NCBI RefSeq assembly: GCF_000238315.3
Contig: NZ_CP011924.1
Location: 4,176,001-4,240,000 of the forward strand
Length of the DNA: 64,000 bases
Source: Pseudoalteromonas piscicida
GTDB taxonomy: Bacteria > Pseudomonadota > Gammaproteobacteria > Enterobacterales > Alteromonadaceae
Direction of reading: 5' to 3'
Each line of letters starts with the position of its first letter. Position 1 is the stretch's first letter. Below, in pieces: positions 20,454 through 57,422 of this stretch. Position numbers and translations under genes: made by a program. Below the pieces are notes generated by a model, which saw nothing but the letters and a program-made list of their open reading frames with translations, made no database searches and had not been told where the DNA came from.

Positions 20454-20560
20454 ACCATTTCTACGCAAAGGACAGCACATGACGGTTAGCATATACATCG
20501 TGCAATATTTTGTTCGATATATTTACCACAAAATTCAAGAGCCTTGGCTTAAGTGCCACA

Positions 20561-20724
20561 CAAAATATCACCCTTAAGGCGGGTCGCAGCCATCGCAGTG
20601 TTATCCAAAGTGATATAAAGCTCAAGGCAGACAACAACTTTACCATCACCGCGCCGGCGGGAAGTCAACTCATTCAAAGCCAAGGTAATATCACAGTAAA
20701 AGGCAGTGGCTCTGGCAACCTCAC
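20561..20724 (+). pseudogene. vgrG spike fragment (first copy)
   Basis: Similar to 6748-6911 of the first vgrG fragment (ITLKAGRSHRSVIQSD, then [16 protein letters not shown]). It ends at CCTCAC, where the tandem copy begins. Too short to function. The 100 bases before it (20454-20560) show no recognised content. Confidence 0.85.
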
Positions 20725-20871
20725 AGGCAATATGGCGCAAAGTCGAAAGAAGTTAGGGAGTGGATGCTTGACCCAAATAACTATACATTGGACCATTACA
20801 GCCTAAACCGTTCAGCGGGAGCTAAGTTAAAAGAAACCTATTTACCCCCAATTAATAAGTTGAAAAAATGA
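20725..20871 (+). pseudogene. 3' fragment of the GH-E toxin (tandem copy)
   Basis: Repeat of 19469-19615: the last 48 codons of the nuclease domain without an N-terminus. It follows the vgrG fragment in a different frame. Confidence 0.9.
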
Positions 20872-21293
20872 AAGAATTAGATGAAAAATTAAGTGATGAG
20901 ATTAATGAAAAATTTAATCGTTCTCTGGAGTTTAGAGACAGAGGAAAAATAGATGAGTCATTTGTTGAAATGCAAGAAGCTATCGAATTAATCCCCTCAC
21001 CGAAGAGCCAGTGGTCAGAATCATTAATTATTATTACTTCAGCTTGTGAACACTTTATTACCATAGAGAAGCTTGCTGAGGCCGAGGCACTAATTGATGA
21101 GTACTTAACTTCAGACTTTTGCATTTCATATGATGATAGCCCAAGCTTCATAAAGGGAATTATATTATTTGAAATGGGTAACTTTAAACAAGCATATGAA
21201 TGGTTTGCTAAAGCCAATTCTATTTCACGGGGCAGATGCTTTGTAGAACAACCTAAAAAATACAAAACTTTCTTTAATGAGTATAACCAATGA
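20868..21293 (+). CDS. TPR-like helical immunity protein 1 (second copy)
   Basis: Identical to the product of 19612-20037. Expression is uncertain because only a toxin fragment precedes it. Confidence 0.65.
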   Translation: MKELDEKLSDEINEKFNRSLEFRDRGKIDESFVEMQEAIELIPSPKSQWSESLIIITSACEHFITIEKLAEAEALIDEYLTSDFCISYDDSPSFIKGIILFEMGNFKQAYEWFAKANSISRGRCFVEQPKKYKTFFNEYNQ

Positions 21294-21709
21294 ATGTACA
21301 TGACCAGATAGAAGAGTATTGCGAGCAAGGCAATGACCTTTTTGATGAAGAAGATTTTCAAGGCGCAATGACACTTTGGAAAAAAGCTTTCGATTTGCTT
21401 GCTGATCCAGATGAAGAGTGGGAGCAAGCCGTTTGGCTTAAAGTATCTATTGGGGATAGTTATTATATGCTTGATGAATATCAACAATCCCTAGATTCAA
21501 TGCTGGATGCATTAAACTACCCTGAAGCACTTGACAACCCATTTATTCACTTTAGAGCTGGCCAGTGTCATTATCAGTTAGGTGATAAAGAGCGCAGTAA
21601 AAATGCTTTACTTAAGGCCTATATGTTAGCCGGGAAAGAAATTTTTGAAGACCATGGAGAGGATGGGCTTTTTTATTACGACTTTTTAAAGTCCGAAATC
21701 AAGTTATAA
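21290..21709 (+). CDS. TPR-like helical immunity protein 2 (second copy)
   Basis: Identical to the product of 20034-20453, again with an ATGA overlap to the gene before it. Confidence 0.65.
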   Translation: MNVHDQIEEYCEQGNDLFDEEDFQGAMTLWKKAFDLLADPDEEWEQAVWLKVSIGDSYYMLDEYQQSLDSMLDALNYPEALDNPFIHFRAGQCHYQLGDKERSKNALLKAYMLAGKEIFEDHGEDGLFYYDFLKSEIKL

Positions 21710-21816
21710 ACCATTTCTACGCAAAGGACAGCACATGACGGTTAGCATATACATCGTGCAATATTTTGTTCGATATATTTACCACAAAATTCAAGAGCCT
21801 TGGCTTAAGTGCCACA

Positions 21817-21980
21817 CAAAATATCACCCTTAAGGCGGGTCGCAGCCATCGCAGTGTTATCCAAAGTGATATAAAGCTCAAGGCAGACAACAACTTTACC
21901 ATCACCGCGCCGGCGGGAAGTCAACTCATTCAAAGCCAAGGTAATATCACAGTAAAAGGCAGTGGCTCTGGCAACCTCAC
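21817..21980 (+). pseudogene. vgrG spike fragment (second copy)
   Basis: Tandem copy of 20561-20724. Here the sequence continues past CCTCAC into CCTTACAAGACGG and then unrelated DNA, marking the right edge of toxin-related sequence. Confidence 0.85.
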
Positions 21981-33103: not shown

Positions 33104-33810
33104 TAAAGCGTAACCTTATCCAGCTTATTAAGTAGTGCCATCACCATCTTAGAAGAGTTTACAGAAGCGACTTCTAGATACTCTTCGAATGATTGCGGTG
33201 ATTCTTTGCCGGCGATATCAGATAGCGAGCGGATCACAACAAATGGCGTGTTTAAAGAATGACAAGCCTGCGCAATTGCCGCACCTTCCATTTCGACTGC
33301 TAACATCGTAGGGAAGTCTGCACGCGCCTTGTCGATGCGTACTGGGTCACACATAAATGAGTCACCCGTACAGATCAAACCAACCATAGTTTGAATGCCT
33401 TCAAGCTCATGTACGCTTTGCTCTGCAGCTTCAACTAATTTTGCATGCGAAGTGAACGCAGCAGGTATTTGTGGAACTTGACCAATTTCATAGCCAAATG
33501 CAGTAACATCAACATCGTGATGACGTACTTCATTTGAAATAACCACATCGCCGACGTTTAGTGATGGTTCAAAACCACCTGCAGAACCCGTGTTGATCAC
33601 GCAATCTGGCGCAAAGTTGTCGATCAGCAAAGTTGTCGCAACTGTTGCTGCCACTTTACCAATGCCAGACTGTACAAGCGTTACATCAAGACCAGCCAGT
33701 TTGCCGGTATAAAAAGTAAAGCCACCTTTGGTCAATGTTTGCGGGTTTTCCATGGTGTTACGCAAAATGGTAACTTCTTGCTCCATTGCGCCGATAATGC
33801 CTACTTTCAT
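33103..33810 (-). CDS. mtnN: 5'-methylthioadenosine/S-adenosylhomocysteine nucleosidase
   Basis: 235 aa from the ATG giving [17 protein letters not shown] (AGGAA upstream); a longer frame adds 14 doubtful residues. [39 protein letters not shown] (catalytic glutamate) and RSLSDIAG (catalytic aspartate) are intact. It removes adenine from MTA and SAH, serving methionine salvage and autoinducer-2 synthesis. Translation is coupled to the cobD-like gene. A truncated tandem copy lies at 34736-35203. Confidence 0.95.
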
Positions 33811-33895
33811 CAAAAGATTCCTAATTTGTGGTGGGGAAAGCCCCAGTGTCAAAATTGCTTTTATTATACGAAAGGGGTTTTGATAGGTAAAACAA

Positions 33896-33917
33896 AAAAC
33901 GGGCTGACGCCCGTTTT
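33896..33917 (-). terminator. Terminator after the DUF2726 gene (first copy)
   Basis: AAAACGGGC, loop, GCCCGTTTT followed on the minus strand by more T. It lies directly behind the stop at 33919. A copy is at 35289-35310. Confidence 0.9.
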
Positions 33918-33918
33918 G

Positions 33919-34509
33919 CTAGATTTCTGCCAACTGAGTTGACTGTGCTTTTGCCTGTGAAGGTGACAGTACTGCAGGTTTGTAGGTGCGGTTTCTGGTT
34001 TTCTTTGGCATCTCCACTTTTTGGCCGAGCTTGAATAAGATTGCCGCACGAACTTCAGCACTTTGGTAGCCACTTTTGATTTTCATGCGAATGTGTGGAA
34101 TACCCGCAGATTCCAGAGCGCCACTGACAAACCAATCTTTTTGTGCTTTATGGCCGTTTTTATTGGAATTATTGACTAAGTCTACAGCGGCAACAATTTT
34201 CAGTGTCTCTTTGTCTACCAAAACATAATCCAACTGTTTATTCTTAGCTTTAGTTACCGCGGCACGACGTGCTTTTGGAGAGATCCCCGGTTTGCACTCA
34301 ATCACATCAATGAGTTTAATGCGGCTAACGATTTTATATATATCGCCAACAGCACGTTCTAATAAATGTAGAAACGAGGCTTCAACGGTAGTAAAAACAG
34401 ATTCTTTACGATTAAACGGATAAGGATTGCCACCTACATCGGTGTACTTAGAAGCGACAATGGAAGCAACGACCACTAGAGCCAAAATAGCAAGCAACGC
34501 AAATTCCAT
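33919..34509 (-). CDS. DUF2726 nuclease-like membrane-anchored protein (first copy)
   Basis: 196 aa from the ATG preceded by GGAG (a TTG four codons earlier is less likely). Residues 1-19 are hydrophobic. The rest has FTTVEASFLHLLERAVGDIY, VIECKPGIS, QLDYVLVDKETLKIVAAVDL and AGIPHIRMK. This is the DUF2726 pattern, thought to have a restriction-endonuclease-like fold (D-Y-V-L, then I-x-A-V-D-L in place of ExK). Function unknown. Upstream of mtnN in the same direction but separated by a terminator. Confidence 0.8.
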   Translation of the reverse strand: MEFALLAILALVVVASIVASKYTDVGGNPYPFNRKESVFTTVEASFLHLLERAVGDIYKIVSRIKLIDVIECKPGISPKARRAAVTKAKNKQLDYVLVDKETLKIVAAVDLVNNSNKNGHKAQKDWFVSGALESAGIPHIRMKIKSGYQSAEVRAAILFKLGQKVEMPKKTRNRTYKPAVLSPSQAKAQSTQLAEI

Positions 34510-34735
34510 ACAAAACTCCAAATCAAAAAAATGACATCTGTGATTTGATAAGCAATAGCTGTGCCAAAATAGCGCTTAAATTAGTGGGTGGTTAACATTA
34601 AATCGGTGAATCAGTATTTGGGATATGGAAAGAAAAATAAAGTGCTTTAAGTTGTTTATACTAGGCAGCGATATCTTACAGCAGGGCTGCCTAGTACTGG
34701 ATAATGATACTATACCAATTAACCTTAATACTTGC

Positions 34736-35203
34736 TCAATTTGAAGGAGTAAACCTGACGCTAACAGCGTTAAAACTTTTTTTTTGAATGCCTTCAAGCT
34801 CATGTACGCTTTGCTCTGCAGCTTCAACTAATTTTGCATGCGAAGTGAACGCAGCAGGTATTTGTGGAACTTGACCAATTTCATAGCCAAATGCAGTAAC
34901 ATCAACATCGTGATGACGTACTTCATTTGAAATAACCACATCGCCGACGTTTAGTGATGGTTCAAAACCACCTGCAGAACCCGTGTTGATCACGCAATCT
35001 GGCGCAAAGTTGTCGATCAGCAAAGTTGTCGCAACTGTTGCTGCCACTTTACCAATGCCAGACTGTACAAGCGTTACATCAAGACCAGCCAGTTTGCCGG
35101 TATAAAAAGTAAAGCCACCTTTGGTCAATGTTTGCGGGTTTTCCATGGTGTTACGCAAAATGGTAACTTCTTGCTCCATTGCGCCGATAATGCCTACTTT
35201 CAT
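34736..35203 (-). pseudogene. Truncated mtnN copy
   Basis: Carries the first 140 codons of mtnN, then switches at the duplication junction (34783) to intergenic sequence, giving [16 protein letters not shown] and stop. Both catalytic acids near the C-terminus are missing. Confidence 0.92.
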
Positions 35204-35311
35204 CAAAAGATTCCTAATTTGTGGTGGGGAAAGCCCCAGTGTCAAAATTGCTTTTATTATACGAAAGGGGTTTTGATAGGTAAAACAAAAAACGGGCTGA
35301 CGCCCGTTTTG

Positions 35312-35902
35312 CTAGATTTCTGCCAACTGAGTTGACTGTGCTTTTGCCTGTGAAGGTGACAGTACTGCAGGTTTGTAGGTGCGGTTTCTGGTTTTCTTTG
35401 GCATCTCCACTTTTTGGCCGAGCTTGAATAAGATTGCCGCACGAACTTCAGCACTTTGGTAGCCACTTTTGATTTTCATGCGAATGTGTGGAATACCCGC
35501 AGATTCCAGAGCGCCACTGACAAACCAATCTTTTTGTGCTTTATGGCCGTTTTTATTGGAATTATTGACTAAGTCTACAGCGGCAACAATTTTCAGTGTC
35601 TCTTTGTCTACCAAAACATAATCCAACTGTTTATTCTTAGCTTTAGTTACCGCGGCACGACGTGCTTTTGGAGAGATCCCCGGTTTGCACTCAATCACAT
35701 CAATGAGTTTAATGCGGCTAACGATTTTATATATATCGCCAACAGCACGTTCTAATAAATGTAGAAACGAGGCTTCAACGGTAGTAAAAACAGATTCTTT
35801 ACGATTAAACGGATAAGGATTGCCACCTACATCGGTGTACTTAGAAGCGACAATGGAAGCAACGACCACTAGAGCCAAAATAGCAAGCAACGCAAATTCC
35901 AT
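35312..35902 (-). CDS. DUF2726 nuclease-like protein (second copy)
   Basis: Identical to the product of 33919-34509, with the same start region and the same terminator (35289-35310). Confidence 0.78.
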   Translation of the reverse strand: MEFALLAILALVVVASIVASKYTDVGGNPYPFNRKESVFTTVEASFLHLLERAVGDIYKIVSRIKLIDVIECKPGISPKARRAAVTKAKNKQLDYVLVDKETLKIVAAVDLVNNSNKNGHKAQKDWFVSGALESAGIPHIRMKIKSGYQSAEVRAAILFKLGQKVEMPKKTRNRTYKPAVLSPSQAKAQSTQLAEI

Positions 35903-36275
35903 ACAAAACTCCAAATCAAAAAAATGACATCTGTGATTTGATAAGCAATAGCTGTGCCAAAATAGCGCTTAAATTAGTGGGTGGTTAACATTAAATCGGT
36001 GAATCAGTATTTGGGATATGGAAAGAAAAATAAAGTGCTTTAAGTTGTTTATACTAGGCAGCGATATCTTACAGCAGGGCTGCCTAGTACTGGATAATGA
36101 TACTATACCAATTAACCTTAATACTTGCTCAATTTGAAGGAGTAAACCTGACGCTAACAGCGTTAAAACTTTTTTATTTAGAACAACTAAATAGCAAAAT
36201 TTTTGCCTTGTTATCGACAAGATTTTCTCGCCTCAAAATAGACCACTTAATTAAGATAACTGGTATTAGCTCGCG

Positions 36276-38180
36276 TTATTTGTCCTCTTTAAGCACATAG
36301 ATCTCACCATCGAAACTACCTTGAATGGTCAATCCTTGGCCTGCCAGTTCCTTGAGATATTCAATATGCTCTTGGGTAATATGTTGACCTGGCACCAAAA
36401 GCGGAATACCCGGAGGATACGGGGTGACTAAACCTGCACAAATACGGTTGTTGCTCTTGCTAATAGGTACAGATTCACGCTCGCCGTAGAAGGCATCACT
36501 AGGAATACAAGCAAGGTCAATAGCGGGCAAATTCTCAGGTAAGCGTGAGCGTCGCGTTGACTTCGATAGTTTTACCTTGCCGCCATCAAGTTTCTTTAAG
36601 GCATTGTATAAACGAATGATCTTTGAGCGTGTACCACCCAAGGTTAGTAAGACTAAGATGGTACTGTGTGTATATTTCTCAATCTCCAGCCCAATTTCGT
36701 CCAGCAGAAACTTATGAATATCCTTTAATGAGTATGGCAGCTCACTAATATCGATGAGGATTTTAAGTGGATCATGCCCCATATTATCGCCACTAAAATG
36801 TGGGAATATATTCATAAAGTCTTGCTTATCAAGCACTTTAATATGCTTGAGCGAGGCCATCTGCTGTTTGAATTCTGCAACATGGTTCAGCAGTGCATTG
36901 AGTAACTTATAGCCTTCCATCTCTAGCTGCTTTTGGCACACATCCAAAGACGCAATAAGCTGGTATTTGGGCGAGGTGCTGGCGTAGATACTGTAAATCT
37001 CACGGAAGAAATCAGCATCAAAATCGGGGTCATTAATATGGATATAAGACGCCTGCGAAAATGCCGATACGACTTTATGCGCCGAATGGGTGACATAATC
37101 GGCACCTGCATGAATGGCGGAGTAATGGCGCAAGCTAGGGTGAAATAGCGAGTAAGCAAACCAAGCTTCATCAATAAAGACTTTGATGCCATGCTGATGA
37201 GCAAATTCTACGACTTGTTTCAGGTCGCTCAGCAAACCATCATAGGTACAGCCTGTGAGCACCAGTAGTTTTGCATCGGTATTTTGTTCAATCGCTTGCT
37301 TAATATCGGCCAGTGAAGGCGGTGCAAATATGCCATATTTTGGATTTAAGATACTCGACAAATAGATTGGGAAACTGGCCGATTGCAAAATGCCATAGTG
37401 CACAGACTTATGACAGTTGCGGTCGATGATCACCTTATCGCCCTTGCGAAGGAGGGTTTGCAAAATAATTTTATTCGAGGTGGACGAACCGTTGGTCACG
37501 AAGTAGGTGCGTTTAACCTCAAACGTTGCCGCTGCGGACTCCTGAGCGCGGCCAATGGTATTGGTGCTGTCTGACAGTGAACCTAACGAATCAACCGATA
37601 CAGACAAGTCTCCGACAAATACATTACGGCCATAGAATTGATAAAAATCTTTGATATAAGGAGAGTTTCTAAAGCTCGAACCGCCGCTGTGACCCGGAGT
37701 ATGCCAAGAGTCGTTCGCTTCGCCGACATAGCTGCGATACGCCGTCCAAAATGGCGTCTCGGCTCTGTCATCAAAGTCGTTGATCATATATCCTAAAATG
37801 GCTTCAGGATCTGAGATAACTTCATCTTTAAAGAAGAAAGACTCGATTTCCTCGGATTCGTTGACTATCTCAAGCCCTTTAGTGTCATCACCAATAACGT
37901 AAACCGGTAATTATAGACGAATACTTTTTAATTGCTCGATAAAGCGACTATAGGTTTGTTCGCCACTTTTGTTGTGCACATCCCAACTCAGCACGACGGC
38001 TTGAATATCACCATCTTCAGTGACATGTTCCAAGGCTTTTGAAAGTTCGAGGCATTCAATAATATCGATTTGAACATCCTCTCGCTCAAAGTTAGGGATC
38101 GTTTTTGACAGATTGCTTGAGAGCGCTTGCAATACAGCTGGCTCTTGTTCTATTAACAAGATACGAAGGACAGGTAGCAT
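36276..38180 (-). pseudogene. Orn/Lys/Arg decarboxylase split by an in-frame stop
   Basis: Two frames in the same register make one gene. 38180-37914 encodes the response-regulator-like wing domain (LRILLIEQEPAVLQAL to LKSIRL). A TAA at 37911-37913 follows, and the frame continues open as LPVYVIGDDTKGLEIVNESE into MINDFDDRAETPFW and the PLP domain. SWHTPGHSGGSSFRNS, VTNGSSTSNKI, IDEAWFAYSLFHP and THSAHKVVSAFSQ (PLP lysine) are intact. ATG 37787 could start a 503-aa product lacking the wing. Only one codon breaks an otherwise good gene of about 634 codons, so it is a fresh nonsense mutation, a sequencing error or read-through. Substrate (lysine, ornithine or arginine) cannot be told. Confidence 0.88.
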
Positions 38181-38484
38181 AATGATATTCGCATTAAAAT
38201 TTAAAGACTTTCATTAGCATAAAGAAAGCGCAGTGATTTGTGAAATCAATACTTTGAAAATGTTCCAGAAATTGTAAAACGGATGTAGGCGAGGAAGTTG
38301 TTGCGAGTGATGGAAAGTGTGCGATTCAACATAGGAAACAGGAAGGTTTCGAGTATCAGGCGTGTCTGAGTTAAATTTGGGATAGGGTGTTTTTGAAGGC
38401 TGTATTACGATTGCTTTTCAATGATAAATACAGTCGGTAGTTATAAAAACAATAGTACTAGCTAACAGATCAAAAGGAGTCAAA
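38181..38484. other. Divergent intergenic region, decarboxylase / YVTN gene
   Basis: 304 bases without a gene. It should hold the divergent promoters; no box is clear enough to name. Repeated at 39798-40101. Confidence 0.5.
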
Positions 38485-39480
38485 ATGAGATTGGTTAATT
38501 ATGTTGTGTATGTGTTCTTATTTGGGTGTTTAATCAGCTTCCCTTCATGGGCTGATACAAATAACTTGTCGGGAACATTGGTTGTTGTAAATAAAAAGGG
38601 GGACTCGGTTGATTTCATCGATCTTAGCAGCCGAAAAATTAAGCTGACGCTCGCAACCGGCAGAGGACCACATGAATTAGCAATGAGTGCCGACGGGCAT
38701 ACGGCTGTTGTCACTAATTATGCACGTGGCAATAGTCTAAGTGTTTTTGACGTTCGGCAAGCAAAAAAAGTAAAAACCATTGATTTGTCTCGTTATCCAA
38801 GGCCACATGGCGTGTTGTTTTTTAAAGACCAAAAACGCGTTGCAGTATCGTCTGAAGGTTCAGACAGTGTGGTAATCGTTGATATAGAGTCGGGGAAAAT
38901 TGATAAAGTAATAGCAACAGAGCAAAAAGGCTCTCATATGGTGGCGCTGCCGGCGTCTAGCGAGCGTGTTTACACCACAAATATGCGCGCAGATTCAGTG
39001 TCTGAATTAGATGTAAAGTCAGGTGCCTTACTTCGCAAAATTTCAATGCCAAAAGTACCAGAGGCTATCACTATAAATAAAAGTGGCTCAGAGCTCTGGG
39101 TTGGTAGCAACGATGATGGCTTAGTTACCGTGTTTGATGTAGCAAATGAGCGTATAATTAAGCAATGGAAAGGCTATAGCTTTCCATACCGTGTGTTACT
39201 TACCCGCGATGAGCAGCTTGCTGTGATCCCAGACTATAGGAATCACACCCTTGATGTGATCGATGCAATGCACAAAGAAAAGCTGCGTCAAATAAAGTTT
39301 GAGCTGGGAACAGGACCAAAAGGCGTGATCCTCCATCCAGACGATCGCACTTTATTTTTATCCGCTTACCAAAAAAATAAGGTCCTTGTTATAGATATTG
39401 TATCTGGCAAAACCTTATTTGAACTCCCTACTGGTAACGGACCAGATGGAATAGGGTATTCAGCAGTGGTATTGCCTTAG
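38485..39480 (+). CDS. YVTN-type beta-propeller protein (first copy)
   Basis: The 331-aa periplasmic protein has a signal peptide of about 23 residues (cleavage after PSWA). AAAGGAG precedes the ATG. Repeating blades contain GTLVVVNKKGDSVDFIDL, GRGPHELAMSADGHTAVVTN, GSDSVVIVDIESGKI, SELDVKSGALLRKI and GTGPKGVILHPDDRTLFLSA. This is the seven-bladed YVTN/quinoprotein-like propeller. No enzyme active site is recognisable, so a binding or scaffolding role is likely. An identical copy is at 40102. Confidence 0.85.
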   Translation: MRLVNYVVYVFLFGCLISFPSWADTNNLSGTLVVVNKKGDSVDFIDLSSRKIKLTLATGRGPHELAMSADGHTAVVTNYARGNSLSVFDVRQAKKVKTIDLSRYPRPHGVLFFKDQKRVAVSSEGSDSVVIVDIESGKIDKVIATEQKGSHMVALPASSERVYTTNMRADSVSELDVKSGALLRKISMPKVPEAITINKSGSELWVGSNDDGLVTVFDVANERIIKQWKGYSFPYRVLLTRDEQLAVIPDYRNHTLDVIDAMHKEKLRQIKFELGTGPKGVILHPDDRTLFLSAYQKNKVLVIDIVSGKTLFELPTGNGPDGIGYSAVVLP

Positions 39481-39629
39481 GCTAGCCATCTCGTCGATAC
39501 GAATGTGGCGTAAAGTAGGAGCTGCTTTACGCAGCGATCTGTGTTTCCAGAACACTTGGATAATTTTACGAAACAACAAATTCACGGTAACCACCATAAA
39601 TAAAAGTTGTGCTTATGCTAAAACAAAGA

Positions 39630-39728
39630 TTAACTATCAGTCTTCTCTTTAAACTCACATAAGTCTTCAATAATACAGCTGCCACATTTAGGTTTACGCG
39701 CGGTGCACACATAGCGGCCATGGAGAAT
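39630..39728 (-). pseudogene. nth 3' tail fragment A (first copy)
   Basis: Encodes the iron-sulfur end of endonuclease III (YVCTARKPKCGSCIIEDLC, then EFKEKTDS and stop). It differs in sequence from the tail of the intact nth at 46656. Cut at 39728 by the tandem-duplication junction. Confidence 0.9.
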
Positions 39729-39797
39729 ATTGCTTGAGAGCGCTTGCAATACAGCTGGCTCTTGTTCTATTAACAAGATACGAAGGACAGGTAGCAT
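39729..39797 (-). pseudogene. 5' fragment of the decarboxylase gene (tandem copy)
   Basis: The first 22 codons of the wing domain and its upstream region, repeated from 38112-38180 and running straight into the nth tail fragment. Confidence 0.9.
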
Positions 39798-40101
39798 AAT
39801 GATATTCGCATTAAAATTTAAAGACTTTCATTAGCATAAAGAAAGCGCAGTGATTTGTGAAATCAATACTTTGAAAATGTTCCAGAAATTGTAAAACGGA
39901 TGTAGGCGAGGAAGTTGTTGCGAGTGATGGAAAGTGTGCGATTCAACATAGGAAACAGGAAGGTTTCGAGTATCAGGCGTGTCTGAGTTAAATTTGGGAT
40001 AGGGTGTTTTTGAAGGCTGTATTACGATTGCTTTTCAATGATAAATACAGTCGGTAGTTATAAAAACAATAGTACTAGCTAACAGATCAAAAGGAGTCAA
40101 A

Positions 40102-41097
40102 ATGAGATTGGTTAATTATGTTGTGTATGTGTTCTTATTTGGGTGTTTAATCAGCTTCCCTTCATGGGCTGATACAAATAACTTGTCGGGAACATTGGTT
40201 GTTGTAAATAAAAAGGGGGACTCGGTTGATTTCATCGATCTTAGCAGCCGAAAAATTAAGCTGACGCTCGCAACCGGCAGAGGACCACATGAATTAGCAA
40301 TGAGTGCCGACGGGCATACGGCTGTTGTCACTAATTATGCACGTGGCAATAGTCTAAGTGTTTTTGACGTTCGGCAAGCAAAAAAAGTAAAAACCATTGA
40401 TTTGTCTCGTTATCCAAGGCCACATGGCGTGTTGTTTTTTAAAGACCAAAAACGCGTTGCAGTATCGTCTGAAGGTTCAGACAGTGTGGTAATCGTTGAT
40501 ATAGAGTCGGGGAAAATTGATAAAGTAATAGCAACAGAGCAAAAAGGCTCTCATATGGTGGCGCTGCCGGCGTCTAGCGAGCGTGTTTACACCACAAATA
40601 TGCGCGCAGATTCAGTGTCTGAATTAGATGTAAAGTCAGGTGCCTTACTTCGCAAAATTTCAATGCCAAAAGTACCAGAGGCTATCACTATAAATAAAAG
40701 TGGCTCAGAGCTCTGGGTTGGTAGCAACGATGATGGCTTAGTTACCGTGTTTGATGTAGCAAATGAGCGTATAATTAAGCAATGGAAAGGCTATAGCTTT
40801 CCATACCGTGTGTTACTTACCCGCGATGAGCAGCTTGCTGTGATCCCAGACTATAGGAATCACACCCTTGATGTGATCGATGCAATGCACAAAGAAAAGC
40901 TGCGTCAAATAAAGTTTGAGCTGGGAACAGGACCAAAAGGCGTGATCCTCCATCCAGACGATCGCACTTTATTTTTATCCGCTTACCAAAAAAATAAGGT
41001 CCTTGTTATAGATATTGTATCTGGCAAAACCTTATTTGAACTCCCTACTGGTAACGGACCAGATGGAATAGGGTATTCAGCAGTGGTATTGCCTTAG
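40102..41097 (+). CDS. YVTN-type beta-propeller protein (second copy)
   Basis: Same 331-aa product and upstream region as 38485-39480. If real, gene dosage is doubled without sequence change. Confidence 0.82.
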   Translation: MRLVNYVVYVFLFGCLISFPSWADTNNLSGTLVVVNKKGDSVDFIDLSSRKIKLTLATGRGPHELAMSADGHTAVVTNYARGNSLSVFDVRQAKKVKTIDLSRYPRPHGVLFFKDQKRVAVSSEGSDSVVIVDIESGKIDKVIATEQKGSHMVALPASSERVYTTNMRADSVSELDVKSGALLRKISMPKVPEAITINKSGSELWVGSNDDGLVTVFDVANERIIKQWKGYSFPYRVLLTRDEQLAVIPDYRNHTLDVIDAMHKEKLRQIKFELGTGPKGVILHPDDRTLFLSAYQKNKVLVIDIVSGKTLFELPTGNGPDGIGYSAVVLP

Positions 41098-41246
41098 GCT
41101 AGCCATCTCGTCGATACGAATGTGGCGTAAAGTAGGAGCTGCTTTACGCAGCGATCTGTGTTTCCAGAACACTTGGATAATTTTACGAAACAACAAATTC
41201 ACGGTAACCACCATAAATAAAAGTTGTGCTTATGCTAAAACAAAGA

Positions 41247-41495
41247 TTAACTATCAGTCTTCTCTTTAAACTCACATAAGTCTTCAATAATACAGCTGCC
41301 ACATTTAGGTTTACGCGCGGTGCACACATAGCGGCCATGGAGAATAAGCCAGTGGTGGACATCCACTTTAAACTCTTTTGGTACAACCTTTTCCAGCTTT
41401 TGCTCGACGGCCACCACATCTTTACCCATAGCAAACTTGGTGCGGTTGGAAACGCGGAATATATGGGTGTCTACAGCAATAGTCGGCCAGCCAAA
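41247..41495 (-). pseudogene. Displaced nth 3' end (tail A plus core)
   Basis: 83 codons of the endonuclease III C-terminus, including FAMGKDVVAVEQKLEKVVP, DVHHWLILHGRYVC and the four cluster cysteines. The 149 bases at 41347-41495 match 46756-46904 of intact nth with two or so changes; the last 90 bases before the stop (tail A) are clearly more divergent. At 41496 nth sequence ends and the defence-gene region begins. Confidence 0.9.
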
Positions 41496-41597
41496 AGATA
41501 AGCAAGGTAGTTGTCTGGTTGAAAGTATAATAGCACTTGAATTTTTTTGCTTTTCAGTGGCATAGTTCCTAATGCAATAAAATAATATGGATTTTTC

Positions 41598-44500
41598 ATG
41601 GCAGAACTTTCAATTCCCCAATCTTTAAAAGCACACTTAGCTAGCAATGATGTTATTCCTTTAATTGGTGCTGGTGTTTCTATGTCTGTCGAAAAGAAAG
41701 ATGGGAGTAGAGCTTTTCCATCTTGGCCTGAACTACTTAACTTTGCAGCAGAAAGATTGGAAGATGAAGAGTTATTAGATGATAGTCAGCTAGTAAAATT
41801 GCTTGTGAAGAAAGGAAAGCTCCAACAGGCTGCACAAGAAGCTCAAGAGCAATTGTCAGGCAGGCGCTGGTATGATTTTATGCAATCCCAATTTGCAATA
41901 GATTTCACTCAATTGGACGATAGTTGTAAGGCGTTACCACAGGCAATATGGCAATTAAGTAGCAGGCTTGTTACCTTAAATTATGACAAGGTATTAGAAT
42001 GGGCACATACAGAATCAGTTAATGTTTGTGCTTTTGATAATGACAACACAAACAAACTTGCCGAATTTACTCGAAACGGCTCCCATGAAATGCTTTGGCA
42101 TTTACATGGTAAAATAGATGTTCCCCAAAACATGGTGCTGACACCACAATCATATTATCGCCTATATCAAGAAAATGCCAAAGAACACTATCAAACAGCA
42201 CTTACAAAGTTTAGAGAATTACTTAGCAATAAGATTCTTCTATTTATAGGCTGTTCACTTAATGATGCTGAGTTATTGGCTGAAATTGTAAAGCAAAACC
42301 AACTGTTTGACGGCAATACAGGCCCTCACTATGCACTTGTAAGAGAAAAAGACAAAGAAATAATAGAGCAAAAATTAATCGGTATTAATGTAGAATTACT
42401 TACTTTTAGTGACTTTGGTCAACCGTTGATAGCTTCTGTTCAGCAACTAGCTGAATGCAAAAATAAACTAGAGCAGCAACAAATAATTCAGCAACTAGAA
42501 GAATCAGTTCAACCACTTAACGAAGAACCAAATAAGTACGATAAAATTGGTCTATTTACAGCCTCACCTTTAGATAAACCAATAGATGATTCGGATATCA
42601 TCGCAAAACTTAAAAAGTTTAAACATCCTATTTCGCAACAAGCTTTTACAGAAAGTAACTTAATGGAGGCTGATGATTATTCCATTTTATTTTTATTAGC
42701 CAAAACAACGAGTAGTGGATTGTTGATTGAAGACGACAACGCTTGTAGTGATTACCTAGCAATTGATGAACTAGAAAGTAGCTTACCATTTAATGCTAAA
42801 ATAACAGTGTTGATCACAGATAAACCATTGAATGAGCAAGAACTAGGGCGAGTTAAGTTTCCATTACTGGTTTTTCCTCTGTTAAATCAACAAGGCAAAG
42901 AGCTTAAACCTCTTGATAAATTAGCGCATCAGCTATTTAAAAGGCCGGATGTTAAACACTTCATTGATAAAAGTAATGTTCAATCGGTGCATATTAGCGG
43001 TGAGTTATTAGAATCTCTGAAACCAGAAAATCGCAAGCATTGGCAGAAGTATCAACCATTACTACCTAAAGGTATTAATGCAAGTGAATTGCAAGGTTTT
43101 ACTGGGCGCTTATCTGATTTAGCGGATATCAGCCAAAAGCTTGCTAAAGCAGCCAACAAACAAAGGTTATTAACAATTAAAGGCAGTGGTGGCTTAGGTA
43201 AAACAACAATAGCAAAAAAAGTGGCATTAGAATTAGCGAATCGCGGGCATTTTGATGCAGGTGTGAATTTTATTGATTGTGAACATATCTCAAGTAGTAA
43301 TCAGCTTGAAATGCACATCGGCAGTGCCTTTAACTTACGTGCCGCTGATGATTTATTTGATCACTTAGCAAAACATCATGATCAGCGAGAGCGCTTACTG
43401 ATTTTTGATAACTTAGAAAGTTTATTGTATTTAAAACAAGCGGGTAAAAGCCAAAATAAGCAAGAAGTAGAACAAGTTAGGTTATTGTTATCGCAAACAC
43501 TAATGTACGCAAATGTGTTGGTTACTTCCAGAGAAAGTGTTAATGCTGAATGGGAAGATGTGTTGCCATTTCGGCAAATGGAATCTGAAGAAGTATTAGC
43601 ATTATTTAATCGCCTAACTAAAAATGGTTACCACAGTGATAAAGATCAAGAGTTTGCGCGCAGAAAAATTCTAGAACCACTACTAAATAATAACCCGTTA
43701 GCCATTAAGTTAATTTGTGATGGTATGCCTGCAGGTAAAAGCTTAAAAGAGTTAAAGCAAGAGTTAGAAGACGACTTTTTTGATAAGGTTAAAGAAGAAG
43801 ACTTAATTTTAATGTTTGACGATGAAGTTGATTTGAATATTAATCGTCAAGAGTCTCTTTATGTTTCTATTCTTTATTCTTACCGTTCATTGGAGGAACA
43901 TCAGAAACGTACATTGGAGTCCTTCTCGTTATTTCCTGACGGAATAGACCTCGATACATTTAAACATTTAATAACAGAGAGTAAGAGGAAGGATAGAAAC
44001 GAAGAGGCAAGTAAATTGAAAAAGCCGATTAGTGATAAAGATATTGCTGTTCTTACAAATAAATCATTAGTCGAAGCTTATGGTGAGTTTTATTCATTAC
44101 AATCGGTTATCCAACGTTTTGCCCGTTTTCGATTTGAACAACATACGGCAGAAAAAGACAAGCTAGAATTGTTCAGGCAAGCCTTTAAATACAACCTGCA
44201 GCTCATGGAGTTTGTTTATAAACTCAGGAAAACAAATAAAAAAGCAATGCATATCTTCTTATCTTTATTTAACAATTTGTTAAGTGCGATCGATTACGGT
44301 GCAAAAGAAAATGTAGTGAGAAGTGAAACTGAACTTGAAGATTACTTTGAGATGATCGATAACATCTCTCAATTTTCAAGTGATTTAAATCTAGGCTCTG
44401 AATTTTTAGCTGCCCACGAAGCAATTAATATTGAAGGGCTTATAACAAAAAGTAATGAATTTCGGGTAAAGCAGGTATGGAAGCTCATTGAGCTAAGCGT

Positions 44501-45410
44501 GCGCTATTATAATGGCGAGTTTGATGCTGCTTATGAGAAATTAAAATCTTTAATGACAATTGAGTCTTTATCGGCTCTTTCAGGAAATTATGAAAGAGGT
44601 CGAGTGCTTGAAAGAAATGTTTACTATATCGCAGCAAGCCTATATCAGATGGAAGGTTATGCACTTGATAGAGTTGCCCATGACATAAAGTTTAATTCAT
44701 ATCGTTACGTTACTTTGAGGTTATGGAATGTTCAAGTTGCAATGAATGTTGAATCTTTAATGAATCTTGTTAACACTGACTTGAGTTACTTCGAGGCACA
44801 AGGTTATTTATATGGTGCAATCAATCTAAATCAACTAAATCATTCAATTGATGATCTATATGAAAATCAGCATATGGAAAGGGTGCAGTTAACTTATCTT
44901 AAATTTCGTGAAACCTATGTGAGCTTCGAAGCTATAGATAAATTGGTTAGCGTTAACCCTTATACTCGAGGTTTAAAAAAGTTGATGTATGCTTTTTCAT
45001 GCGAGCATGAACAGTCATCTGAGCTAGAACATAATGAGCTGAATGAGAATATAATTCGGTATTACCAATCAGCATTACCAGACTTAAGCCATATTAAGTT
45101 TTATTATGTGCAAGCTCTTTATTTTTATGCTCGATTTTTACAAAAAGCTGATAGTTTAGATTTCGAAACTATTTATGAACAAGGGTTAGGGTTAACTAAA
45201 AGGCATTATTATCGATATTGGCAACACAGATTTTTATTATTAAAACAACCCAGTTTAGGACGTTATAAACCAGAAGATTACCCACTACCTGGAAACCCTG
45301 ATATTTCGTCATTAGTTGAAAAGCAAGCTAAGTGGATAAAACGAACTTATGGTACAAGCTTAAATCCATTCAATCAGGGCAACACTGAGTTAAAAGCGCT
45401 TCCAAGTTAA
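41598..45410 (+). CDS. SIR2-STAND anti-phage NADase (Avs-like)
   Basis: 1270 aa. Residues 1-290 are a SIR2-like NADase: PLIGAGVSM at 21-29, LVTLNYDKVLEWA with N128, LWHLHGKID with H170, and LLFIGCSLNDAEL. Residues 310-500 form an unassigned middle domain. A STAND/NB-ARC ATPase follows: IKGSGGLGKTTIAKKVA near 528, Walker B LLIFDNLESLL near 600, VLVTSRESV near 640. The C-terminal 400 residues are helical TPR-like repeats, the likely phage-sensing part. Known relatives (SIR2-STAND, Avs5-type) deplete NAD when triggered by phage proteins. The gene is alone, flanked by nth fragments, and more AT-rich than its neighbours, which signals transfer. Confidence 0.88.
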   Translation: MAELSIPQSLKAHLASNDVIPLIGAGVSMSVEKKDGSRAFPSWPELLNFAAERLEDEELLDDSQLVKLLVKKGKLQQAAQEAQEQLSGRRWYDFMQSQFAIDFTQLDDSCKALPQAIWQLSSRLVTLNYDKVLEWAHTESVNVCAFDNDNTNKLAEFTRNGSHEMLWHLHGKIDVPQNMVLTPQSYYRLYQENAKEHYQTALTKFRELLSNKILLFIGCSLNDAELLAEIVKQNQLFDGNTGPHYALVREKDKEIIEQKLIGINVELLTFSDFGQPLIASVQQLAECKNKLEQQQIIQQLEESVQPLNEEPNKYDKIGLFTASPLDKPIDDSDIIAKLKKFKHPISQQAFTESNLMEADDYSILFLLAKTTSSGLLIEDDNACSDYLAIDELESSLPFNAKITVLITDKPLNEQELGRVKFPLLVFPLLNQQGKELKPLDKLAHQLFKRPDVKHFIDKSNVQSVHISGELLESLKPENRKHWQKYQPLLPKGINASELQGFTGRLSDLADISQKLAKAANKQRLLTIKGSGGLGKTTIAKKVALELANRGHFDAGVNFIDCEHISSSNQLEMHIGSAFNLRAADDLFDHLAKHHDQRERLLIFDNLESLLYLKQAGKSQNKQEVEQVRLLLSQTLMYANVLVTSRESVNAEWEDVLPFRQMESEEVLALFNRLTKNGYHSDKDQEFARRKILEPLLNNNPLAIKLICDGMPAGKSLKELKQELEDDFFDKVKEEDLILMFDDEVDLNINRQESLYVSILYSYRSLEEHQKRTLESFSLFPDGIDLDTFKHLITESKRKDRNEEASKLKKPISDKDIAVLTNKSLVEAYGEFYSLQSVIQRFARFRFEQHTAEKDKLELFRQAFKYNLQLMEFVYKLRKTNKKAMHIFLSLFNNLLSAIDYGAKENVVRSETELEDYFEMIDNISQFSSDLNLGSEFLAAHEAINIEGLITKSNEFRVKQVWKLIELSVRYYNGEFDAAYEKLKSLMTIESLSALSGNYERGRVLERNVYYIAASLYQMEGYALDRVAHDIKFNSYRYVTLRLWNVQVAMNVESLMNLVNTDLSYFEAQGYLYGAINLNQLNHSIDDLYENQHMERVQLTYLKFRETYVSFEAIDKLVSVNPYTRGLKKLMYAFSCEHEQSSELEHNELNENIIRYYQSALPDLSHIKFYYVQALYFYARFLQKADSLDFETIYEQGLGLTKRHYYRYWQHRFLLLKQPSLGRYKPEDYPLPGNPDISSLVEKQAKWIKRTYGTSLNPFNQGNTELKALPS

Positions 45411-45434
45411 ATTTTTCAATATTATTTTTTAGAT

Positions 45435-45456
45435 GGGAGAGTTTTATAACTCTCCC
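45435..45456 (+). terminator. Hairpin after the SIR2-STAND gene
   Basis: GGGAGAGTT, loop TTAT, AACTCTCCC: a perfect 9-bp stem 24 bases behind the stop. The T-run is weak (TGATAAGTTTT). Repeated at 46576-46597. Confidence 0.7.
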
Positions 45457-45514
45457 TGATAAGTTTTAATTAAGCAGTGAAGTAAGCCCAAATTCAGATA
45501 ATAATTAGTGTGAC

Positions 45515-45614
45515 TTAAATTTCAGTCTTCTCTTTAAACTCACATAAGTCTTCAATAATACATGAGCCGCACTTGGGTTTGCGGGCAACACAGACATAAC
45601 GGCCATGCAAAATC
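45515..45614 (-). pseudogene. nth 3' tail fragment B (first copy)
   Basis: The last 33 codons of nth in the version found in the intact gene, cut at 45614 by the duplication junction. Confidence 0.9.
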
Positions 45615-46551
45615 GGTATGGAAGCTCATTGAGCTAAGCGTGCGCTATTATAATGGCGAGTTTGATGCTGCTTATGAGAAATTAAAATCTTTAATGACAA
45701 TTGAGTCTTTATCGGCTCTTTCAGGAAATTATGAAAGAGGTCGAGTGCTTGAAAGAAATGTTTACTATATCGCAGCAAGCCTATATCAGATGGAAGGTTA
45801 TGCACTTGATAGAGTTGCCCATGACATAAAGTTTAATTCATATCGTTACGTTACTTTGAGGTTATGGAATGTTCAAGTTGCAATGAATGTTGAATCTTTA
45901 ATGAATCTTGTTAACACTGACTTGAGTTACTTCGAGGCACAAGGTTATTTATATGGTGCAATCAATCTAAATCAACTAAATCATTCAATTGATGATCTAT
46001 ATGAAAATCAGCATATGGAAAGGGTGCAGTTAACTTATCTTAAATTTCGTGAAACCTATGTGAGCTTCGAAGCTATAGATAAATTGGTTAGCGTTAACCC
46101 TTATACTCGAGGTTTAAAAAAGTTGATGTATGCTTTTTCATGCGAGCATGAACAGTCATCTGAGCTAGAACATAATGAGCTGAATGAGAATATAATTCGG
46201 TATTACCAATCAGCATTACCAGACTTAAGCCATATTAAGTTTTATTATGTGCAAGCTCTTTATTTTTATGCTCGATTTTTACAAAAAGCTGATAGTTTAG
46301 ATTTCGAAACTATTTATGAACAAGGGTTAGGGTTAACTAAAAGGCATTATTATCGATATTGGCAACACAGATTTTTATTATTAAAACAACCCAGTTTAGG
46401 ACGTTATAAACCAGAAGATTACCCACTACCTGGAAACCCTGATATTTCGTCATTAGTTGAAAAGCAAGCTAAGTGGATAAAACGAACTTATGGTACAAGC
46501 TTAAATCCATTCAATCAGGGCAACACTGAGTTAAAAGCGCTTCCAAGTTAA
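45615..46551 (+). pseudogene. 3' fragment of the SIR2-STAND gene (tandem copy)
   Basis: Encodes the last 311 residues (VWKLIELSVRYYNGEFDAAY onward) without SIR2 or ATPase domains. The only upstream ATG (45562) lies in antisense nth sequence, so a natural product is unlikely. If made, it would be a free sensor domain. Confidence 0.85.
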
Positions 46552-46655
46552 ATTTTTCAATATTATTTTTTAGATGGGAGAGTTTTATAACTCTCCCTGA
46601 TAAGTTTTAATTAAGCAGTGAAGTAAGCCCAAATTCAGATAATAATTAGTGTGAC

Positions 46656-47291
46656 TTAAATTTCAGTCTTCTCTTTAAACTCACATAAGTCTTCAATAAT
46701 ACATGAGCCGCACTTGGGTTTGCGGGCAACACAGACATAACGGCCATGCAAAATCAGCCAGTGGTGGACATCCACTTTAAACTCTTTTGGTACAACCTTT
46801 TCCAGCTTTTGCTCGACGGCCACCACATCTTTACCCATAGCAAACTTGGTGCGATTGGAGACGCGGAATATATGGGTGTCTACAGCAATAGTCGGCCAGC
46901 CAAAGGCGCAGTTTAGTACCACGTTGGCGGTTTTGCGACCCACGCCTGGCAGCGCTTCGAGTGCTTCACGGTTTTCAGGAACTTCGGAGCCGTGCTTGTC
47001 GACGAGGATCTGACACATTTTATAGACGTTATTGGCTTTTGAATTAAATAAACCAATGGTTTTGATATAGTCTCTTAAGCCCTCAAGGCCAAGCTCCAGG
47101 ATCTTTTCTGGTGTGTTGGCAACAGGGAAGAGTTTGCGTGTCGCTTTGTTTACCCCAACATCAGTGGCTTGTGCTGAGAGGGTAACGGCAACTAAAAGCT
47201 CGAATGGTGATGAGTATTCTAGCTCAGTTTCAGGGTGTGGATTTTCGTCCCTGAGTCGCGTGAGTATTTCTATACGTTTTTGTTTATTCAT
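46656..47291 (-). CDS. nth: Endonuclease III
   Basis: The intact 211-aa DNA glycosylase/AP lyase for oxidised pyrimidines has the helix-hairpin-helix LEALPGVGRKTANVVLN with the catalytic lysine, AVDTHIFRVSNR with the catalytic aspartate, and a C-terminal cluster motif C-x6-C-x2-C-x5-C. It follows rsxE by 99 bases in the same direction, the order known from E. coli. Its 3' end seems to have been exchanged when the defence gene arrived: the displaced original end is at 41247-41495. Confidence 0.96.
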   Translation of the reverse strand: MNKQKRIEILTRLRDENPHPETELEYSSPFELLVAVTLSAQATDVGVNKATRKLFPVANTPEKILELGLEGLRDYIKTIGLFNSKANNVYKMCQILVDKHGSEVPENREALEALPGVGRKTANVVLNCAFGWPTIAVDTHIFRVSNRTKFAMGKDVVAVEQKLEKVVPKEFKVDVHHWLILHGRYVCVARKPKCGSCIIEDLCEFKEKTEI

Positions 47292-56037: not shown

Positions 56038-56223
56038 AGTACGCTTCTTAAAGAGGGTTATTCCATAGTATCGGGTGCATTGCCAATTTCTTTATCAAAT
56101 TCATCGGTTTGATTTTGTCTGGTCGATAAATTACTGAGAAGGTTGTTATTTGAGCAAATGCAGTGAGAATATTGCTTGTAGAGTAGTGTAAATGCTGGAA
56201 AAAGTCTAATGCTTTCGTGGAAT

Positions 56224-56300
56224 TGGCTCCCCCTCCCCGACTCGAACGGGGGACCTGCGGATTAACAGTCCGTCGCTCTAACCAACTGAGCTAAGGGGGA
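56224..56300 (-). tRNA. tRNA-Asn(GTT) 1
   Basis: 77 bases with encoded CCA; anticodon loop CTGTTAA gives anticodon GTT; acceptor stem TCCCCCT pairs with AGGGGGA. Last gene of the transcript. Confidence 0.98.
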
Positions 56301-56319
56301 ATAGTCAAGTGTGAGAATT

Positions 56320-56396
56320 TGGCTCCCCCTCCCCGACTCGAACGGGGGACCTGCGGATTAACAGTCCGTCGCTCTAACCAACTGAGCTAAGGGGGA
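56320..56396 (-). tRNA. tRNA-Asn(GTT) 2
   Basis: Identical to the gene at 56224; 19-base spacer on both sides. Confidence 0.98.
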
Positions 56397-56415
56397 ATAG
56401 TCAAGTGTGAGAATT

Positions 56416-56492
56416 TGGCTCCCCCTCCCCGACTCGAACGGGGGACCTGCGGATTAACAGTCCGTCGCTCTAACCAACTGAGCTAAGGGGGA
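56416..56492 (-). tRNA. tRNA-Asn(GTT) 3
   Basis: Identical gene, 19-base spacers. Confidence 0.98.
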
Positions 56493-56511
56493 ATAGTCAA
56501 GTGTGAGAATT

Positions 56512-56588
56512 TGGCTCCCCCTCCCCGACTCGAACGGGGGACCTGCGGATTAACAGTCCGTCGCTCTAACCAACTGAGCTAAGGGGGA
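56512..56588 (-). tRNA. tRNA-Asn(GTT) 4
   Basis: Identical gene, 19-base spacers. Confidence 0.98.
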
Positions 56589-56607
56589 ATAGTCAAGTGT
56601 GAGAATT

Positions 56608-56684
56608 TGGCTCCCCCTCCCCGACTCGAACGGGGGACCTGCGGATTAACAGTCCGTCGCTCTAACCAACTGAGCTAAGGGGGA
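56608..56684 (-). tRNA. tRNA-Asn(GTT) 5
   Basis: Identical gene; preceded in the transcript by the unusual 47-base spacer. Confidence 0.98.
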
Positions 56685-56731
56685 ACAATTTGGAACTTTG
56701 GGAATGCTCTTTTGAGCAATATCTTATTGAT

Positions 56732-56808
56732 TGGCTCCCCCTCCCCGACTCGAACGGGGGACCTGCGGATTAACAGTCCGTCGCTCTAACCAACTGAGCT
56801 AAGGGGGA
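56732..56808 (-). tRNA. tRNA-Asn(GTT) 6
   Basis: Identical gene, isolated between the two odd spacers. Confidence 0.98.
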
Positions 56809-56842
56809 ACTACAATAAGATGCTGACTTTCCGATAAAGGAG

Positions 56843-56919
56843 TGGCTCCCCCTCCCCGACTCGAACGGGGGACCTGCGGATTAACAGTCCGTCGCTCTAA
56901 CCAACTGAGCTAAGGGGGA
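56843..56919 (-). tRNA. tRNA-Asn(GTT) 7
   Basis: Identical gene; last of the upstream block of six. Confidence 0.98.
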
Positions 56920-56938
56920 ATAGTCAAGTGTGAGAATT

Positions 56939-57015
56939 TGGCTCCCCCTCCCCGACTCGAACGGGGGACCTGCGGATTAACAGTCCGTCGCTCTAACCAA
57001 CTGAGCTAAGGGGGA
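56939..57015 (-). tRNA. tRNA-Asn(GTT) 8
   Basis: Identical gene, 19-base spacers. Confidence 0.98.
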
Positions 57016-57034
57016 ATAGTCAAGTGTGAGAATT

Positions 57035-57111
57035 TGGCTCCCCCTCCCCGACTCGAACGGGGGACCTGCGGATTAACAGTCCGTCGCTCTAACCAACTGA
57101 GCTAAGGGGGA
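57035..57111 (-). tRNA. tRNA-Asn(GTT) 9
   Basis: Identical gene, 19-base spacers. Confidence 0.98.
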
Positions 57112-57130
57112 ATAGTCAAGTGTGAGAATT

Positions 57131-57207
57131 TGGCTCCCCCTCCCCGACTCGAACGGGGGACCTGCGGATTAACAGTCCGTCGCTCTAACCAACTGAGCTA
57201 AGGGGGA
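57131..57207 (-). tRNA. tRNA-Asn(GTT) 10
   Basis: Identical gene, 19-base spacers. Confidence 0.98.
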
Positions 57208-57226
57208 ATAGTCAAGTGTGAGAATT

Positions 57227-57303
57227 TGGCTCCCCCTCCCCGACTCGAACGGGGGACCTGCGGATTAACAGTCCGTCGCTCTAACCAACTGAGCTAAGGG
57301 GGA
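57227..57303 (-). tRNA. tRNA-Asn(GTT) 11
   Basis: Identical gene, 19-base spacers. Confidence 0.98.
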
Positions 57304-57322
57304 ATAGTCAAGTGTGAGAATT

Positions 57323-57399
57323 TGGCTCCCCCTCCCCGACTCGAACGGGGGACCTGCGGATTAACAGTCCGTCGCTCTAACCAACTGAGCTAAGGGGGA
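57323..57399 (-). tRNA. tRNA-Asn(GTT) 12
   Basis: Identical gene; first of the transcript, next to the promoter. Confidence 0.98.
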
Positions 57400-57422
57400 A
57401 GCGTATCTCTCAACGGGGCGAA

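Follow-up and report, generated by a model that had tools for sequence, protein, structure and literature searches.

A SIR2-STAND gene at the 3' end of nth in Pseudoalteromonas piscicida, probably cargo of a family of small mobile cassettes

The nth locus and its displaced 3' end

We analyzed a stretch of 64,000 nucleotides from Pseudoalteromonas piscicida (contig NZ_CP011924.1; source genome of 5.49 Mb in two contigs), here called the window, in which a gene predicted to encode a SIR2-STAND protein lies between nth, the gene for endonuclease III, and a second, displaced 3' end of nth (Table 1). The SIR2-STAND protein contains a SIR2 domain (PF13289, 1.4e-22) and a STAND NTPase domain (PF00931, 1.2e-9) in one chain, and in this fusion it is like known SIR2-STAND defence genes (Avs5-like, ThsA-like SIR2). 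It differs from the Avs5-like proteins in that PADLOC returned only LmuA and ThsA matches, confined to the SIR2 part, and no Avs model at E 1e-5. Comparison with solved structures gave three weak matches, the best of them to a SIR2-type deacetylase (residues 10-238, E 1.9e-4). From what is known of these families, the protein probably senses phage and depletes NAD via its SIR2 domain, which would give it an anti-phage role.

Alignment of the displaced end with nt 388-636 of the intact nth showed 91.6% identity over 249 nt, and the blastn match within the genome (E 6.7e-98) is far beyond chance. Most of the differences fall in the final 100 nt before the stop codon, where the two copies differ at 19 positions; the remainder forms a direct repeat of 149 bp. 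A first-pass annotation made from the window alone had described this fragment beyond the defence gene together with a different tail on the intact gene, and had found no integrase in the element; all three descriptions were borne out.

Table 1. Features at the nth locus of the window (positions are those of the window)
Feature	Position	Strand	Remarks
Intact nth (endonuclease III, 211 aa)	46656-47291	-	chimeric: nt 1-536 native-like, last 99-100 nt (46656-46755) foreign
Displaced native nth 3' end	41247-41495	-	corresponds to nth nt 388-636; boundary at 41495 is attR-like
149-bp direct repeat	41347-41495 (-) / 46756-46904		2 mismatches between copies
Right-end motif of the element, AACTACCTTGCTTATCT (consensus ATCTACYTTNATTATMT)	41496-41512	-	directly before TTTGGCTGGCC
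Core TTTGGCTGGCC, nth nt 388-398	46894-46904	-	within intact gene; presumed insertion site, attB/attL-like
SIR2-STAND cargo gene	41598-45410	+	1270 aa; SIR2_2 at 124-259, NB-ARC/NACHT-type NTPase at ~509-721
Cassette as assembled	41496-46904	.	~4.0 kb plus nth end after discounting second copy of unit B
YncE-like beta-propeller gene	40102-41097	+	native nth neighbour at empty site; 150 bp from displaced nth stop
Unit A, exact tandem duplication	38112-39728 / 39729-41345	+	2 x 1617 bp; border ambiguous by one base
Extra content of unit A: propeller gene copy	38485-39480
Extra content of unit A: nth tail	39630-39728		99 nt
Unit B, exact tandem duplication	44474-45614 / 45615-46755	+	2 x 1141 bp
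Extra content of unit B: truncated STAND open reading frame	45562-46551
Extra content of unit B: nth tail	45515-45613		99 nt

To decide which of the two nth ends is native we turned to three relatives with an empty site (L077, L078 and L080, from genomes G071, G072 and G034), in which nth is followed by 150 bp and then by the beta-propeller gene. The displaced 99-nt tail of the window is 94.9, 98.0 and 91.9% identical to the nth tails of these three loci, and the intact tail is 77.8, 82.8 and 76.8% identical to them. The 1.1 kb past the displaced tail is 97.7-98.4% identical to the relatives, and joining nth nt 1-387 to the displaced fragment gives an uninterrupted 211-aa reading frame. These comparisons indicate that the displaced end is the native one and that an element was inserted here, leaving the intact nth with a foreign end, as the first-pass annotation had proposed.

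A fixed junction and stacked cassettes beside nth

The nth gene was found in all 108 genomes of the genus. Its 3' side was tabulated at 101 loci, comprising the window and 100 of the 107 other genomes; the remaining seven were looked at apart. A canonical displaced fragment (longer than 90 nt and starting at nt 385-400) was present at 29 of the 101 borders, with up to four such fragments stacked serially beside one nth, and 40 loci had some nth 3' fragment longer than 60 nt. The share of loci with arrays is a lower bound because 15 of the fragment-free loci end within 6 kb. Thus, the nth border is variable within the genus rather than invariant.

The fragments start at a fixed place. Of 68 starts, two of which (537 and 538) are the duplicated tails of the window, 28 are exactly at nt 388, 35 at nt 386-389 and 46 at nt 386-398. 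The DNA directly before 46 fragments (44 unique) contains a conserved 17-bp end, ATCTACYTTNATTATMT, that adjoins the core TTYGGCTGGCC, which encodes Phe-Gly-Trp-Pro of nth; further out the sequence is near-random. The quality of this end varies from 13 to 27 of 27 scored positions, with the worse fits at old, distal fragments. The clustering of the starts at nt 386-398 beside the 17-bp end places the insertion boundary, on alignment evidence, at nth nt 388, where the 149-bp repeat has its inner edge.

Searches with this junction as a pattern gave results specific to nth. A strict pattern matched 9 sites in 8 of the 108 genus genomes and its reversed form none. A longer end-plus-core pattern (up to 2 mismatches), searched for in 394 genomes of the order, matched 22 sites in 16 of them, against 0 for the reversed control, and an nth 3' fragment follows all of these sites but the one in genome G454. 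The exact pattern was found in 11 records from six genera (Pseudoalteromonas 3, Thalassotalea 3, Paraglaciecola 2, and one each in Psychrosphaera, Aestuariibacter and Alteromonas), each time followed by nth residues ~129-210. Viral contigs contained no exact match to two junction patterns. The nth 3' end itself matched 199 plasmid and 12 phage records; no cassette carrier was apparent among the matches listed, and the one record opened, a plasmid of Shewanella baltica, carries the entire rsx-nth region.

We refer to the DNA between successive nth ends as cassettes. The 65 such intervals have a median length of 2.26 kb and usually one to three open reading frames (ORFs); three of them are doubtful, since L081 is no displaced 3' end and L136 and L137 enclose the native decarboxylase. 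Some sizes recur across species (4005, 4005 and 4038 nt; 2399 and 2399 nt), and transcription is mostly toward nth (89 of 127 cassette ORFs of at least 120 aa). In some genomes nth and a displaced fragment with an end of this type are much further apart, at 10-73 kb.

The SIR2-STAND cassette recurs in genomes G036, G043, G067 and G083. In six pairs from these four genomes its DNA is 86-90% identical, and the nth 5' parts of the same pairs are 72-74% identical in five and 84.9% in one. Another cassette, which encodes a TetR-type regulator and an acyltransferase-like protein, occupies ranks 3, 5 and 2 in three genomes and is 94-99% identical between them, compared with 82-91% for nth 5'. Related cassettes therefore sit in distant species and at different ranks, as these alignments show.

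The cargo is diverse. We scanned 79 of 82 cargo representatives with Pfam (the native propeller was scanned as an eightieth protein, and the STAND protein of the window represented L112); the three left out were the native decarboxylase, the duplicated STAND piece and one 127-aa ORF. Where Pfam gave a match, the protein was mostly a regulator, hydrolase, transporter, TonB receptor or acetyltransferase. Transposase-type domains occur in four cargo proteins (one in L045, two in L151 and one in L123). Defence-like proteins are few: SIR2-STAND, AbiV, RelE and perhaps RelA/SpoT-domain and KAP proteins. PADLOC matched 12 families among the 82 proteins, with one protein each. The earlier suggestion of a defence-gene hotspot was correct in naming a variable insertion site and too narrow as to what is inserted.

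Proposed movement of the cassettes and its alternatives

Comparison of nth genes revealed mosaics. In 99 pairs whose nth 5' parts are at least 0.93 identical, mean identity is ~0.96 ahead of the core and ~0.89 beyond it, and it dips slightly before the core is reached, at nt 337-384. Chimera breakpoints were placed in 23 pairs, seven of them independent, and in four of the seven the support interval overlaps nt 385-400 (two tight, two broad). In the window, nt 388-536 are homogenised and the tail beyond them is foreign; in the sister genome G083 nearly the whole nth end is alike in both copies. Because G083 shows this different mosaic, the near-identity of the 149 bp is probably a footprint of gene conversion, and not the crossover segment for which it had been taken. 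Judging from these mosaics, homologous exchange between nth ends operates in addition to the site-specific event. The initial insertion model thus held in outline, with the boundary moved to nt 388, the repeat reinterpreted and the cargo mostly other than defence.

Two further observations concern nth itself. In G010 (L169, 2816-4205) nth breaks off after ~nt 397, and a different but complete Nth-like gene of 226 aa stands between it and the displaced nth 3' end; this border has no 17-bp motif, and the whole gene was seemingly replaced and not its end restored. A divergent 663-nt form of nth is present in G045 (L151) and also in G008, G015, G035, G037, G068, G069 and G105. The G045 gene is 96% identical to that of G075 in its 5' part and 76% at its 3' end, suggesting an exchange across a large distance.

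We propose that the SIR2-STAND gene is probably cargo in a family of small mobile cassettes that are integrated at nt 388 of nth by a trans-acting recombinase and later reshuffled by homologous recombination. Each cassette would join the 17-bp right-end motif and one or a few genes to an nth 3' end of ~245 nt. In a circular cassette the joint between the motif and TTYGGCTGG would recombine with the joint between nth 5' and TTYGGCTGG. Each integration would rebuild nth, regenerate the target and shift older cassettes outward, comparable to insertion at the first position of an integron. We place the recombinase in trans because none was found in the small cassettes. Later homologous recombination and gene conversion between nth ends would swap tails and cassettes, as the mosaics suggest.

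Several results weigh against this proposal. No tyrosine or serine recombinase was detected by Pfam among the 79 cargo proteins, which come mostly from small cassettes, and no excised circle was seen. In 12 Pseudoalteromonas genomes every PF00589 match on the nth contig is 178 kb or more from nth, the rest being on separate contigs. Among 12 true array genomes the nearest matches are 22 kb (G266, a 417-aa phage-type integrase) and 55 kb (G253) from the site; all others are 99 kb or more distant or on a different contig, the contig ends of drafts hiding the remaining distances. Short tyrosine recombinases (207-216 aa, PF00589) occur inside two of the large presumed elements, which have the end motif of the cassettes. 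In G105 (L153, 146-1802) a catalytic-only enzyme of 207 aa lies beside a TIR-domain gene within a presumed 31-kb nth element, and in G015 a match of the same size is on the contig that carries the fragment; matches of this size are also on other contigs in G069, G008 and G015. Three of the seven independent breakpoints exclude nt 385-400 and lie upstream (319-365), and the foreign part of the window's intact nth starts near nt 537 and not at nt 388. Some cargo is less alike than its nth genes: 64-71% against 75-77% for nth 5' in three pairs of group c57-15, and 76% against 84-85% in two of three pairs of group c70-71. Sharing of cassettes in these two groups may therefore be old.

Two types of recombinase were considered as the mover. 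A short type (~190-220 aa) is present in many array genomes and was not adopted because it has no match in G095 or G341. A conserved type of 403-423 aa was found in four Pseudoalteromonas regions (20 surveyed) and, at 44-47% identity, in G254 of another genus; its loci (L235, L236, L253, L254 and L242) are away from nth. We dropped it since none of the G341 or G189 matches compared clustered with it, in a comparison set that left out the 299-aa and IntI-type matches of G341 and the IntI of G189.

The lack of a recombinase in the cargo is what would be expected if no site-specific enzyme were at work today. An ancestral nth island with an integrase would then have left behind a motif that is inherited, and the cassettes would now move only by natural transformation and homologous recombination, which would use nth 5' DNA at one flank and displaced nth ends at the opposite flank. 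Mosaic breakpoints away from nt 388 and the conversion between nth copies in the window and in G083 agree with this. So do exact repeats of 98 bp and 44 bp, which should suffice for RecA exchange. We regard this explanation as unlikely, since it leaves unexplained why, across six or more genera, unrelated cargo is bounded exactly by an nth end and by one and the same 17-bp motif. Separate decay of a prophage, an integrative and conjugative element (ICE) or an integrative and mobilizable element (IME) at each locus, formerly with its own nth-specific integrase, would explain the 10-73 kb intervals with the same kind of end as larger ancestors, as well as the short tyrosine recombinase in two of them. 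The median of 2.26 kb and the sizes that recur across species favour compact units over random decay, however, and no integrase remnant was found among the 79 cargo proteins, mostly of small cassettes; we consider decay very unlikely.

An enzyme acting in trans could also be the integron integrase IntI, encoded elsewhere and using nth as an extra landing site. Of the 15 array genomes, 14 encode IntI (TIGR02249 above cut-off), as do 149 of the 379 other genomes of that sample (Fisher p = 2.9e-5), with G454 counted as non-array because its single site lacks a following nth, and stacking at the first position follows the logic of an integron. Within 430 bp upstream of 20 intI genes the motif has 6 matches (up to 4 mismatches; 5 loci, two of them homologous), and 200 Markov shuffles gave 1.5 on average and never more than 5. 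The association is nevertheless confounded by kinship, because most arrays belong to a family in which IntI is widespread, and the arrayed genome G028 has no IntI above cut-off and G004 no PF00589 match of IntI-like length. The motif matches are weak and scattered (-114 to -409 from intI), likely attI junctions read differently, and no GTTRRRY box of the attC type is present at the nth junction, where the 44 unique ends read ATTATMT followed by TTYGGCTGGCC, with no GTT. A role for IntI thus seems quite unlikely to us.

The window also contains the exact tandem duplications A and B, whose copies are 100% identical and end precisely at the outer edge of the 149-bp repeat. Both ends lie at equivalent positions of the two nth copies, which might be taken as the work of an enzyme cutting nth there, and G083, where the same cassette has single copies of the units, is a draft; exact copies could have been collapsed in a draft assembled from short reads. 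That the duplications are real is nonetheless highly improbable in our view. They belong to four exact tandem copies of 1.1-1.6 kb in the window, and two more (~1.03 and ~1.16 kb) were found elsewhere in the same genome in 20 pieces of 20 kb (8,000 bases masked), while 355,548 bases of other genomes contained none. Of these four further copies, the three that were tested abut, overlap or sit within genome repeats. A search of the genome with 16S rRNA, intended to find repeat borders, gave no match and was uninformative. Units A and B are thus probably assembly artefacts, so that the truncated STAND ORF and the second propeller copy would not be real, and we rejected the duplications as a component of the mechanism.

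The other two duplications of the window (19469-21980, 1256 bp; 33390-36175, 1393 bp) abut or lie inside dispersed genome repeats, duplicate genes and are probable artefacts as well. A dispersed repeat of ~165 bp (~36104-36268) has 48 further matches in the genome, its tandem copy aside. The first 22 kb contain several related repeats, among them a long near-exact direct repeat (6805-8608 and 15554-17357, offset 8749). At 56223-57400 there are twelve consecutive tRNA-Asn genes, nearly all identical and mostly spaced by 96 bp; so high a copy number is unusual and is either real or a product of assembly.

Relation to known elements and significance

We found no description of nth as an insertion site or of nth arrays in the literature on islands, integrons and related elements, though an earlier description is possible; the portions of PMC4119200, PMC5217437, PMC4246890 and PMC9345347 available to us do not mention nth arrays. 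Genomic islands that enter the 3' ends of genes (tRNA-type islands, SGI1 in trmE, those of Islander/TIGER), so far as the accessible text of the sources goes, share with the nth elements a site-specific entry, a restored gene end, a displaced fragment on the far side and possible tandem integration. The restored end of the target gene and the fragment at the far border are both true of the window element. Such islands carry an integrase. The nth units, of ~2 kb and one or a few genes each, yielded none.

Cis-mobilizable elements (CIMEs) are understood to be decayed pieces of ICEs or IMEs with a resident relative at the same site. The nth cassettes are like them in having att-like borders without an integrase, in stacking at one site and in the need for a helper, and differ in that no sure helper was found and that their size is constant in several species. 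Chromosomal integrons resemble the nth arrays in their small cassettes of varied cargo stacked from one anchored site. The nth arrays are anchored at a housekeeping gene, their cassettes are mostly transcribed toward nth, and no intI lies beside them in the 12 Pseudoalteromonas genomes, nor any IntI-type match near the sites of 12 array genomes.

In the additive flexible genomic islands of Alteromonas, cassettes are added at a conserved place by site-directed recombination, according to the parts of PMC4119200 and PMC5217437 at hand. The sites named there are a tRNA gene and integrons, and nth with its 17-bp end is not among them. Strand-biased circularizing (SE) elements encode tyrosine recombinases of their own and are bounded by inverted 19-bp ends, C and C', according to the available part of PMC9345347. 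The small nth cassettes have no recombinase that we found and a single conserved end, the other end being the nth 3' end.

Repeated nth ends may produce contig ends and, in the window, false tandem copies; nth arrays may thus explain some broken assemblies at nth. More tentatively, and with less than even confidence, we suggest that the arrays might represent a second, integron-like system of gene capture in several marine gammaproteobacterial genera, in which nth would be the fixed receiving site and would be rebuilt at each addition, cassettes would end in the 17-bp motif joined to an nth 3' end, and a single trans-acting recombinase would add them. The fixed junction and the 17-bp end allow cassettes to be sought by pattern in any genome and make the recombinase a concrete target. 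The arrays point to nth as a defined site at which marine bacteria gain defence genes and many others in small elements without an integrase.

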